This document shows positions 31,998-36,198 of a stretch of DNA of 64,000 bases, one piece after another (the first letter of the stretch is position 1; each line of letters starts with the position of its first letter). Made by a program: the position numbers and the translations under genes. This DNA comes from Pseudooctadecabacter jejudonensis (GTDB lineage Bacteria > Pseudomonadota > Alphaproteobacteria > Rhodobacterales > Rhodobacteraceae). A model generated the notes under the pieces. The model saw only the letters and a program-made list of their open reading frames with translations, was not told where the DNA came from and searched no databases. The stretch is taken from assembly GCF_900172275.1 (NCBI RefSeq), contig NZ_FWFT01000001.1, positions 620,001 through 684,000 on the forward strand. The letters run 5' to 3'.

Positions 31998-33731
31998 TTA
32001 GCGCATCTCTTCAGCCGGTGTGACGCCAAGAATACCCAATCCGTGTGCAATTACAACGGAAACGGCACGGATCAGGGCGATTTTCGCCTGTGACGCGGCC
32101 ACGTCATCCTGAATAAACCGCAAGGACAGATCGTCATTGCCGCGGTTCCACAGCCCGTGAAGCTCAGAGGCGAGGTCATAAAGGTAGAGGGCCACGCGGT
32201 GCGGCTCATTCGTGCGCGCGGCAATTTCCACCACGCGGGGCCACTCGGCGGCTTTGGCGGCCAGCGCCAATTCGGCCTCATGGGCGGCCAGCGTCAGGTC
32301 GGCGGCGGCCAGATCAGACGTGTTGATGCCCGCATCGGCAGCCTTGCGCAGCACGGAGTGCACGCGCGCATGGGCGTATTGCACGTAGAACACAGGGTTG
32401 TCCTTGGACTGTTCCACCGCCTTGTCGAAATCAAAATCAAACGGCGTGTCGTTCTTGCGCGTCAGCATGATGAACCGCGCGACATCCTTGCCCACCTCGT
32501 CCACCAGATCGCTGACGGTGATGAAGGTGCCCGCCCGTTTGGACATCTTGAACTCTTGGCCGTTTTTGAACAGCCGCACGATCTGCGCCAGCTTGATATC
32601 CAGCGGCACCGCATCATCCGACAACGCCGCCACAGCCGCCTTCATCCGTTTGACGTAGCCCGTGTGATCGGCGCCAAACACATCAACAAGGGCGTCGAAG
32701 CCCCTGGAAACCTTATCATAATGATACGCAATGTCGGGGGCGAAATAGGTCCAGGCCCCATCGCCTTTCTGCACGGCGCGGTCTTCGTCGTCGCCAAAAT
32801 CGGTGGATTTGAACAACCACTGCTCTCGGGCTTCCCAGTTGTCGGGCATCTTGCCCTTAGGCGGCTTCAGCGCCCCCCAATAGATCAGATCCTTCGCCTT
32901 GAGGCTCTCGATCGCCTCTTCGATCCGGCCGGTGCCGTACAAAGATTTCTCCGAGAAAAACACATCCATTTCGATGCCCAAAGACGCCAGATCCGCCCGA
33001 ATGAGATCCATCATCGCCTCAGTCGCAAACTCCCGCACGGGGGCGAGCCATACGTCTTCGCTGTTTCCCAAATATGCATCACCGACCTTCGCCTTCAGCG
33101 CTTCGCCCGCGTCAATCAGGTAATCGCCCGGATAGGTGCCATCCTCAAACGTCACCTCTTGGCCGTGAGCCTCCAAGTAGCGCAGGTAAACTGACCGCGC
33201 GAGGACATCGACCTGCCCGCCGCCGTCATTAATATAGTATTCCCGCGTGACGTCGAAACCCGCGTAATCCAGCAAGGACGCCAGCGCGTCGCCAAAAATG
33301 GCGCCCCGCGTGTGGCCCACATGCAACGGCCCCGTGGGGTTGGCCGAGACATATTCGACGTTGATCCGCTTGCCTTGCCCCATGGTAGAGCGGCCAAAAT
33401 CAGCGTTCGTCAGCACCGCCCGCACCACGTCTGCCCAGACGCTCGGCGCCAGCCGCAGGTTCAAAAACCCCGGTCCCGCCACATCGGCGCTGACAATCCG
33501 GTCGTCGCCCGCCAGTTTGGCAGCAAGCGCTTCGGCAATATCGCGCGGTTTGGATTTCGCGGGTTTGGCCAACACCATCGCCGCATTCGTCGCCATGTCG
33601 CCGTGCGCTGCATCGCGCGGCGGCTCAACCGTGACGTTGTCGAACGACAGCCCCTCCGGCAACGCGCCCTCGCGCACCATCGCCTCAAGACACTCAACAA
33701 CATGGGCGCGGATATCGGCAAACAGGTTCAT
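31998..33731 (-). CDS. argS: Arginyl-tRNA synthetase
   Basis: Class I aminoacyl-tRNA synthetase, 577 residues. The HIGH-type motif reads HVGHTRGAIFGDAL and the KMSKS-type motif KMSKRAG. N-terminal Add-1 and C-terminal DALR anticodon domains are in order (the latter with VQYAHARVHSVLRKA). First gene of the argS-SPOR-nagZ-scpAB run. Confidence 0.97.
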   Translation of the reverse strand: MNLFADIRAHVVECLEAMVREGALPEGLSFDNVTVEPPRDAAHGDMATNAAMVLAKPAKSKPRDIAEALAAKLAGDDRIVSADVAGPGFLNLRLAPSVWADVVRAVLTNADFGRSTMGQGKRINVEYVSANPTGPLHVGHTRGAIFGDALASLLDYAGFDVTREYYINDGGGQVDVLARSVYLRYLEAHGQEVTFEDGTYPGDYLIDAGEALKAKVGDAYLGNSEDVWLAPVREFATEAMMDLIRADLASLGIEMDVFFSEKSLYGTGRIEEAIESLKAKDLIYWGALKPPKGKMPDNWEAREQWLFKSTDFGDDEDRAVQKGDGAWTYFAPDIAYHYDKVSRGFDALVDVFGADHTGYVKRMKAAVAALSDDAVPLDIKLAQIVRLFKNGQEFKMSKRAGTFITVSDLVDEVGKDVARFIMLTRKNDTPFDFDFDKAVEQSKDNPVFYVQYAHARVHSVLRKAADAGINTSDLAAADLTLAAHEAELALAAKAAEWPRVVEIAARTNEPHRVALYLYDLASELHGLWNRGNDDLSLRFIQDDVAASQAKIALIRAVSVVIAHGLGILGVTPAEEMR

Positions 33732-33795
33732 GGCACTTCCTTTCGATCAAAGGTCCGTTTAGCACTGTCACACCAGACGTCAACGAGCCTCTCTT

Positions 33796-34899
33796 ATGAC
33801 CCGCACCCTGTTCTTTCTGACGGCCCTTTCGGCGATGCTTTTTGCACTGACCGCTGTCCTCATCCGGATTGAGCTTTTTGCACCCGGTGTCTCGCCCCTG
33901 TTTCAAGCCGCTGATGCGATACCGGACAGCGCGAAATTCAACCGTGTGACGCAGTTTCATGCGCTGATGGGCTATCTGACCACGCTTTTGCTTGGCACCA
34001 CTTTGGCTGCAGCGGGCCGCGAAAAGGGGGGGCTGTTTGCTGTGCCTGTGATGGGTCTTGGGATGATGTTGAGTGCGCTGGCCTTCGTCGCGACGGTTCT
34101 CATCACCTGGCCCGTGCCGGACGGAGGCGGCGGTCTGGCGGGATGGTCTCTCTATCCCTCAGATGCGCAACGCCCCACGTCACTTTTTGAGGCTGTCACA
34201 CTGATGGTCAACATTGATCCGTTCTTCACAGATGTGCCGATGGTGGCTTTGATCCAGACGCTGACCCTGCCAGCCTCGGGCCTTCTGACCCTGAGCTTCT
34301 ACGTCCTGCTGTCGACCCAACCCAAGCTGCGTTGGGTCGCCGTGCCCGGGGTGGTCCTGACCCTTGTGATGGTCTTTGTGTCTACCACTTGGGTCCTTTA
34401 TGCCGATCCGGTGAACACCAATGCCTTGCTTTTGTTGCCGCTGTTCCCGTTTCTGGCCGCCGCCTGCGTGCGTATGACAGACGACCCGCCCGCGTGGCTG
34501 GTGACGCTGACACTGGGCGTTTTGTGCGTGATCGTGCTTGGGGTGGGCTTGTTTGCCTGGGCGGACACATTGCCGGTTGAGGGCACACAGGTCGGCGTTG
34601 CGGCACTTTATCTTTATCCTCTCGGGCTGGGATGGTTTGCCCTGCCTGCGTTGATCCAGGTCCGCTGGGGCACGCGATTGCCTGCGCCTCTGATCTGGAC
34701 GCTGCCTGCGGCCATCTTGACCTTGCTGCTTTTGTGGACAGCGCCGCTGTTCCGCACGGGCCTGAACGGGCAGCCGCGGGGCTACATCGACTATCCGGAC
34801 GGGTTGGCAGCCGACAATATGGGCGCAACGCTGGCCACTGGTGTGTTCGTTGTGGGGTATCTGGCGATCATCACACTGGTCCGCCGATCGCGGACCTAG
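33796..34899 (+). CDS. Reduced cytochrome oxidase subunit I-like membrane protein
   Basis: A 367-residue polytopic membrane protein of about nine or ten helices. Several stretches align with heme-copper oxidase subunit I: LIRIELFAPG (22-31; oxidases have LIRxELxxPG), FNRVTQFHALMGYL (48-61; oxidases YNxxxTxHAxxMxF), AGWSLYPS (115-122; oxidases GWTxYPP) and QPRGYIDYPDG (326-336; oxidases MPRRYxDYPD). The HPEVY helix, the His-His pair and the other heme ligands are missing: the only histidine in the protein is His55, at the place of a heme a ligand. It cannot be a working oxidase. It lies on the opposite strand between argS and dgt, without other oxidase genes. Function unknown. Confidence 0.6.
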   Translation: MTRTLFFLTALSAMLFALTAVLIRIELFAPGVSPLFQAADAIPDSAKFNRVTQFHALMGYLTTLLLGTTLAAAGREKGGLFAVPVMGLGMMLSALAFVATVLITWPVPDGGGGLAGWSLYPSDAQRPTSLFEAVTLMVNIDPFFTDVPMVALIQTLTLPASGLLTLSFYVLLSTQPKLRWVAVPGVVLTLVMVFVSTTWVLYADPVNTNALLLLPLFPFLAAACVRMTDDPPAWLVTLTLGVLCVIVLGVGLFAWADTLPVEGTQVGVAALYLYPLGLGWFALPALIQVRWGTRLPAPLIWTLPAAILTLLLLWTAPLFRTGLNGQPRGYIDYPDGLAADNMGATLATGVFVVGYLAIITLVRRSRT

Positions 34900-34913: not shown

Positions 34914-36062
34914 CTACCCCATAAGTCGTGCATGCGTGTCCAACGCAAAACGGTCGGTCATCCCCGAAATGTAATCTGACACAATCCGCGCCAGCCCGAC
35001 CTCATCCGCGGCGGCCGCCACGTCGTCGCGCCAGGCCTGCGGCAAGTGTTCCGGTTGGGCCATGAACAACGGAAACAAATCCTCGACCACTTGGGTCACC
35101 TCTGCCCGCATCTTCACCACTGACGGCGCGCGGTACATCTGGGTGAACAAAAACCGCCGCACGACCTTTAGATCCGCCCATAAGGCGGGTGAAAACTGCA
35201 CCATCATGCGTCCGGCCCCGCGCACATCCGAACACGTCTGCGCGTCTATTTCGCGTAGGTTCGCCCGGCTCACCGCGATGACATCCTCAACCAACACTCC
35301 GAAAAAGCGCCGCAACGCCTCATGTCTGCGGCGGTCCTCATCCAAGTTGGGATAGGTCGCATCCACTTCGGCAAAACAAGGGCCAACAATCGGCAGGCCC
35401 ATCAGGTCCTGAGTTGTAAACAGGCCCGCCCGCAATCCATCGTGTATGTCATGATGGTTGTAGGCAATATCATCAGACAGCGCCGCCACTTGCGCCTCAG
35501 CCGAAGCATGGGTGTGCAATTCCAGATCGTGCCGCGCGTTATAATCCTCCAACGCATAAGGCACCGGTTCGCCACCGTCCGTCACCACAGGACCGTTGTG
35601 CTTGGCGATCCCCTCCAAGGTTTCCCACGTCAGGTTCAGCCCATCCCACTGGGCATAATGCCTTTCAAGAGAGGTCACGATGCGGATCGCCTGCGCATTG
35701 TGATCGAACCCGCCATAGGGTGCCATCAGCGCGGCCAGCGCGTCCTCTCCGGTATGGCCGAAGGGCGTGTGACCCAGATCATGGGCCAGCGCCACAGCCT
35801 CCGTCAGCTCACCATTCAATCCCAAAGCGCCCGCAATGGTTCGCGCCACCTGCGCCACCTCAATGGAATGGGTCAGCCGCGTGCGGAAATAGTCGCCTTC
35901 ATGTTCCACAAACACTTGGGTCTTGTGTTTCAGCCGCCGAAACGCGCTGGAATGAATGATCCTGTCCCGATCCCGCTGAAATGGGGACCGAAATTCGCTC
36001 TCGTCCTCCGAATACAGGCGCCCACGGGCCGCCATCGGGTTGCACGCATAAGGTGCCGCCAT
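34914..36062 (-). CDS. dgt: Deoxyguanosinetriphosphate triphosphohydrolase-like protein
   Basis: HD-superfamily dNTPase, 382 residues, expected to cleave dNTPs to deoxynucleoside and triphosphate. N-terminal FRSPFQRDRDRIIHSSAFRR and metal-binding HD motif RLTHSIEV then ALAHDLGHTPFGHTGE are intact. The start at 36062 fits the family (MAAPYACNP). In the lineage it usually stands next to argS; here the oxidase-like gene separates them on the other strand. Confidence 0.92.
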   Translation of the reverse strand: MAAPYACNPMAARGRLYSEDESEFRSPFQRDRDRIIHSSAFRRLKHKTQVFVEHEGDYFRTRLTHSIEVAQVARTIAGALGLNGELTEAVALAHDLGHTPFGHTGEDALAALMAPYGGFDHNAQAIRIVTSLERHYAQWDGLNLTWETLEGIAKHNGPVVTDGGEPVPYALEDYNARHDLELHTHASAEAQVAALSDDIAYNHHDIHDGLRAGLFTTQDLMGLPIVGPCFAEVDATYPNLDEDRRRHEALRRFFGVLVEDVIAVSRANLREIDAQTCSDVRGAGRMMVQFSPALWADLKVVRRFLFTQMYRAPSVVKMRAEVTQVVEDLFPLFMAQPEHLPQAWRDDVAAAADEVGLARIVSDYISGMTDRFALDTHARLMG

Positions 36063-36198
36063 CGCCTTTTGTCCCTTATTATCTGGCAACAAAACCGGCC
36101 ATCCCTGTCCTTATGGCCCCGTCTTGTCGCCTCTGCCTCAGCCTCCTATATTGTGTCATGGCCCCAGCGGCCAGTCTGACCATGAAAAGGTGGCCAAA

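Follow-up and report, generated by a model that had tools for sequence, protein, structure and literature searches.

A putative oxidase-dead paralogue of cytochrome oxidase subunit I at the argS-dgt site of some Rhodobacteraceae

A stretch of 64,000 nucleotides (nt) from Pseudooctadecabacter jejudonensis (contig NZ_FWFT01000001.1, positions 620,001-684,000; genome code G000), here called the window, carries an open reading frame (ORF) whose product descends from subunit I (COX1, the product of ctaD) of the aa3-type cytochrome oxidases. With a probability that we put at roughly 0.5, this gene encodes an oxidase-dead paralogue of CtaD/COX1 that occupies the argS-dgt site in some Rhodobacteraceae and keeps, or has recently lost, its low-spin heme site, with a role that would be accessory. 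Its sequence suggests a protein that still functions, though not as an oxidase.

33796-34899, plus strand: COX1-derived ORF, ATG to TAG, 367 amino acids (aa), predicted to fold into about 10 helices

Searched alone, the window protein matched no family in Pfam or NCBIfam, gave two matches only in PHROGs (E 0.077 and 0.28), and in a phmmer search of the PDB returned no COX1, the seven sequences found there (carboxysome shell, lectin-like) lying at E 0.14-2.1; nor did it find a relative among 24 candidate stretches of genome contigs. The kinship is instead carried by its relatives, of which we found twelve full-length members and a partial one, among the matches listed, in the Octadecabacter-like genus of the window (family Rhodobacteraceae; 19 genomes of the genus covered) and in six other genera of the family. 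The partial gene (G216, locus L157) does not enter any of the 12-row counts. A profile of the 7 orthologues from the genus retrieved only COX1 from the PDB (18 of 18 matches up to E = 10, best 1.2e-5), as did the 12-row profile (33 of 33 matches at E <= 0.001, best 7.5e-23). Two relatives match unaided, the G181 protein to P. denitrificans COX1 (E 1.4e-8) and the G341 protein to the Pfam COX1 model (55.3 bits, cut-off 34.8). In hhalign, the 12 rows aligned with 46 ctaD proteins at a probability of 99.4 over 365 columns, and with the 7 genus rows only, just both ends aligned well (51 columns at 97.0 and 120 columns at 91.4). A match of two members to UPF0242 (best E 0.0011) was taken for chance.

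These comparisons establish, at the level of sequence, that the gene descends from COX1. An earlier note on this DNA had proposed such a relationship from landmarks that follow the COX1 order, and they do so at LIRIELFAPG (residues 22-31), FNRVTQFHALMGYL (48-61), AGWSLYPS (115-122) and QPRGYIDYPDG (326-336). We consider the landmarks to be beyond chance because R24, G31, H55, G325 and D332 are kept in all 12 members and the profile retrieves COX1 alone from the PDB. The proposal is borne out by profiles, single relatives, predicted fold and a fixed neighbourhood, but not by the window protein alone, and the Pfam check suggested in the same note succeeds for one of the 12 members (G341) and fails for the window protein. 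That an unrelated membrane protein resembles COX1 by chance, as the silence of the single sequence against every COX1 model and PDB chain might suggest, is refuted by the matches of the profiles, the single relatives and the predicted fold, and we give this explanation practically no credence.

The predicted fold is that of oxidase subunit I with about 10 helices: among the matches listed, all 50 of the realigned fold matches are oxidase or nitric oxide reductase entries. The earlier note had named the 12-helix oxidase core as the standard of comparison; both predicted models have about 10 long helices instead. A crude hydropathy count gave 9 helices for the window protein, a figure that alone would not decide the number because a true ctaD also counted low (only 10). 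About two helices have been lost, most likely transmembrane helices (TM) 4-5. We base this on the gap in hhalign and on the first-profile PDB alignment, which consists of two overlapping pieces, residues 154-358 on chain positions 273-499 (score 24.2), the piece that we follow, and residues 100-194 on 138-236 (score 6.7).

To describe the residues we use the numbering of R. sphaeroides COX1, and as invariant we count 215 aligned positions that are identical in at least 95% of the 46 ctaD. We take H102 and H421 to be the ligands of heme a, E54 and G59 to be Ca2+-site residues, and R481 and R482 to be the propionate-side arginines. Five invariants (R52, G59, H102, G478 and D485) are kept in all 12 members and 75 in none, some of which may be misaligned given that the middle of the alignment is unsure. 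The relevant sites of the window protein are as follows.

33865-33867, plus strand: Arg24, at COX1 R52; Arg in 12 of 12 members
33871-33873, plus strand: Glu26, at COX1 E54; Glu in 11 of 12, Asp in one
33886-33888, plus strand: Gly31, at COX1 G59; Gly in 12 of 12
33958-33960, plus strand: His55, at COX1 H102, low-spin heme a ligand; His in 12 of 12
34609-34611, plus strand: Tyr272, at the place of COX1 H421, second heme a ligand; the first-profile PDB alignment differs by one residue
34768-34800, plus strand: GQPRGYIDYPD, aligned to COX1 G478-M-P-R-R-Y-I-D-Y-P; Gly325 and Asp332 (D485) in 12 of 12

By this alignment, the kept residues delineate the heme a corner together with the Ca2+ site next to it. 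According to excerpts of the respective reports, R52 of R. sphaeroides is bonded to the formyl group of heme a (PMC12901375), and D485 is part of the cation site, at which Ca2+ causes a shift in the spectrum of heme a in the bovine enzyme (PMC3769247). Residue 55 is the only histidine of the 367-aa protein, in agreement with the earlier note, which had described an oxidase look-alike with a lone histidine; its position is not arbitrary, as it coincides with H102, a ligand of heme a, and has been retained along with R52 and the Ca2+-site residues. The note had also called for a survey of His55 and the landmarks in homologues. His55 is present in all 12, and the weakest landmark, GW.LYPP, is lost in two members of the genus (L004, L005) and in four of the five distant ones.

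The ligands of the oxygen site are lost in the alignment, as the note had claimed for copper and heme a3. The H419 column (heme a3 ligand) has His in none of the 12 members, the H333/H334 columns contain a single His among the 12 rows (L007, at H334), and the stretch of TM6 with H284 falls in an alignment gap, as does E286, so that the loss of H284 is read from the lack of a conserved His in that stretch. An adjacent His pair in G314 (184-185) does not align with H333/H334, and G175 may, by eye, keep one His near H333. Where COX1 has six metal-ligand histidines, the window protein has one histidine in total. The D- and K-channel residues are not kept (D132 is Asp, and K362 is Lys, in 0 of 12), and with Arg at R481 in five and at R482 in six of the 12, the propionate-side arginines are not conserved in every member.

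The second heme a ligand divides the family. At H421 all five distant full-length members carry His, as the partial G216 gene does by eye, so that both ligand positions are His in these five, and in the genus of the window six of seven carry Tyr and one Asn. The first-profile PDB alignment would make Leu271 the counterpart of H421; we prefer the next residue, Tyr272, since T413 and A418 anchor the stretch gap-free, His occupies this place in the distant members and hhalign gives the same pairing. The choice is a matter of judgement, made over few residues.

A COX1 scaffold without heme, serving protein contacts such as the stabilisation of CtaA/CtaB or of an assembly intermediate, would account for a window protein with one His and for the loss of H421 in seven of seven genus members. 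Such a role has been put forward for a protein of Acetobacter, the 'deranged COX1-like protein', which according to excerpts of the source has none of the metal-binding residues and is encoded together with ctaB (PMC10715153). It would not account for the retention of H102 and R52 in 12 of 12 members while 75 of the 215 invariants are kept in none, nor for the five distant members with both heme a ligands, and the member loci here are flanked by argS and dgt and not, as stated for Acetobacter in those excerpts, by ctaB. Since His55 sits at H102 and is kept with R52 and the Ca2+-site residues, a heme-site function or a relic of one is likelier than a plain scaffold, which we regard as possible but rather doubtful. 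The protein may also act in assembly or sensing, as the earlier note had suggested.

Under the reading of an oxidase-dead paralogue, the protein has lost about two helices, most likely TM4-5, together with the heme a3/CuB centre and the D- and K-channel residues, and has kept, by alignment, the corner for low-spin heme a, which includes the formyl-binding Arg, the ligand His of TM2 and the neighbouring Ca2+-site residues. Most lineages would bind one low-spin heme via the H102/H421 pair. The protein may then have an accessory, non-catalytic role. We favour the handling of heme A, or quality control, in the service of the aa3 oxidase, given that the Arg that was kept fits a formyl heme and that the genome of the window also has a normal ctaD (L195 3347-5059; frame of 571 aa); an electron relay with one heme, or a redox sensor, would be a less likely role. 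Because H421 became Tyr in the window's genus, the heme there may be held by His/Tyr, or may have been lost with the scaffold alone in use. A bolder and unlikely version would be a natural 'half oxidase', COX1 cut down to the low-spin heme a and Ca2+ corner as a one-heme membrane protein, in which the second axial ligand of one lineage changed from His to Tyr, so that heme A would be ligated by His and Tyr. If heme is bound, the electron-entry heme site of cytochrome oxidase would have been separated in nature from the oxygen chemistry, and the protein would offer a compact model for studying how heme a is inserted, the Arg that binds its formyl and the Ca2+ site close by. Whether or not it does, the gene shows COX1 put to new use at one constant place in the chromosome, with at least one apparent recombination event limited to the gene.

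Compared with the aa3 COX1 of R. sphaeroides and P. denitrificans, the window protein is alike in sequence, in predicted fold and in its residues at R52, E54, G59, H102, G478 and D485. It differs in being about 200 aa shorter than the ctaD frame of its own genome (367 against 571 aa, the two-thirds length noted earlier), with about two helices fewer, in not keeping the heme a3/CuB ligand set, D132 and K362, in the loss of H421 in its genus, and in the lack of oxidase genes beside the COX1-derived gene. With the Acetobacter protein it shares, so far as excerpts of that description go, the descent from COX1 and the absence of a working metal centre; that description sets the two apart, since the present family retains one or both ligands of heme a and is flanked by argS/dgt instead of ctaB. 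A COX1-like protein without metal ligands is thus already known, and what differs here, relative to the same excerpts, is the address, the retained heme a/Ca2+ corner and the His-to-Tyr change. CtaA and Surf1, heme A handling factors in aa3 assembly according to excerpts of PMC5249081, are alike in proposed role only (membrane heme A handling during aa3 assembly). Our literature searches turned up no description of a COX1-derived family flanked by argS and dgt.

Among 101 genomes, its own included, the window protein found six full-length relatives, all of the same genus (38-42% identity) and with argS on one flank and dgt on the other, and four weak matches (E 0.002-0.007) belonging to other families, one a clear ctaD (L010). 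The profile of the seven genus proteins added G181, G341 and G175 in a family search of 394 genomes, nearly all one per genus; argS neighbourhoods in 80 further genomes added G314, and an enlarged profile added G123 and the partial gene of G216, at a contig edge next to dgt. At least eight of the 394 family genomes thus hold the gene (G000, G016, G181, G175, G341, G314, G123 and, in part, G216), a count from which the first-look filters may have missed diverged members. Other short frames (e.g. G126, G046, G290, G450) and a 75-aa match in G002 from the genus search were classed, by size and place alone, as ctaD cut by contig ends. A class search (385 genomes, E <= 1e-16) recognised no further member, its matches being judged by frame length, not singly: apart from the genome of the window, 12 matched, of which 11 have open frames of 532-646 aa and the twelfth (G762) has one of 201 aa that starts at base 83 of its contig.

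The frame is intact in seven of the 19 genus genomes, and broken pieces occur in the same argS-dgt gap in G006, G014 and G017 (loci L064, L065 and L066). G007 shows a doubtful trace (E 0.014), and the gene was not seen in the other eight; for two of these, L062 (G004) and L069 (G011), absence is unsettled because no dgt was seen there. These remnants, together with the patchy presence in the family and an evolutionary rate about 7 times that of dgt (median end branch 0.93 against 0.13), would suit a decaying relic, a former second ctaD losing its function stepwise under neutral or nearly neutral change. That explanation is hard to reconcile with the seven intact frames, or with five invariant positions in members that are 17-30% identical to the G341 protein. 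It is further opposed by one pair, G015 and G013, in which the sequences indicate purifying selection (synonymous distance, dS, 0.22; nonsynonymous distance, dN, 0.042; dN/dS 0.19), and we find it quite improbable.

The same pair points to an apparent recent exchange confined to the gene, as argS and dgt on either side have dS of 0.98 and 1.09. In 150-base windows, DNA identity is 85-95% in the gene, 67-87% in the 1.5 kilobases (kb) before and 77-87% in the 0.8 kb after it, and ranges from 51 to 93% elsewhere in the 9 kb compared; between these two Octadecabacter-like lineages (L180/L181 3929-5129) it falls near both gene ends. Such an exchange, and a gap that takes other inserts too, might be expected of a quickly evolving COX1 mimic that serves as a decoy or immunity-like protein against a phage or bacteriocin. 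PADLOC models match none of the 12 members, and the conserved positions form the heme corner, not a variable surface, which leaves this explanation very improbable.

Several points weigh against the reading of an accessory paralogue with a heme site. All seven proteins of the genus, that of the window among them, lack the second ligand; the window protein has Gly at R482, and the unsure middle of the COX1 alignment touches the losses. The putative heme and calcium role is read from residues, and the heme need not be heme A, because equivalents of R52 may occur in heme b oxidases. Selection is estimated from one pair, since all others have dS of 1.27-2.77; the Pfam COX1 model passes for just one member, not that of the window; and only at least eight of the 394 family genomes hold a gene that, as the three genus members with remnants indicate, can be lost. 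No oxidase gene lies beside the COX1-derived gene in any member locus read.

Every member found adjoins argS and/or dgt. The neighbours in the window, with gene names by our own reading, are:

31998-33731, minus strand: argS, divergent upstream neighbour
34914-36092, minus strand: dgt, convergent downstream neighbour

The COX1-derived ORF lies 64 base pairs (bp) from argS and 14 bp before dgt; in G175 another gene, antiporter-like by eye, stands between it and dgt. By eye, a short stretch before the ATG (33732-33795) recurs upstream of argS even in genomes that lack the COX1-derived gene (L059-L061). This stretch is possibly the promoter of argS, in which case the transcription of the COX1-derived gene would be unsettled. 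In G206, a normal ctaD (L196 7160-8902, frame of 581 aa) is followed by a DUF2244-like gene (labelled by eye) and is divergent from argS (from about 9260); the degenerate gene is placed and oriented likewise in other genomes. This is possibly a clue to origin or a coincidence; an origin in place from a ctaD beside argS was set aside, as the arrangement could not be shown to exceed a rearrangement.

We surveyed 95 argS-dgt loci (L058-L152), with both genes detected in 75. The two lie within 133 bp of each other in 30 of the 75, so that close spacing is probably the default state, and across all 75 the gap measures 58 to 3764 bp, resembling a minor hotspot of insertion. By eye, the inserts vary, with antiporter-like genes in L058 and L072 and a glyoxalase-like gene in L059.
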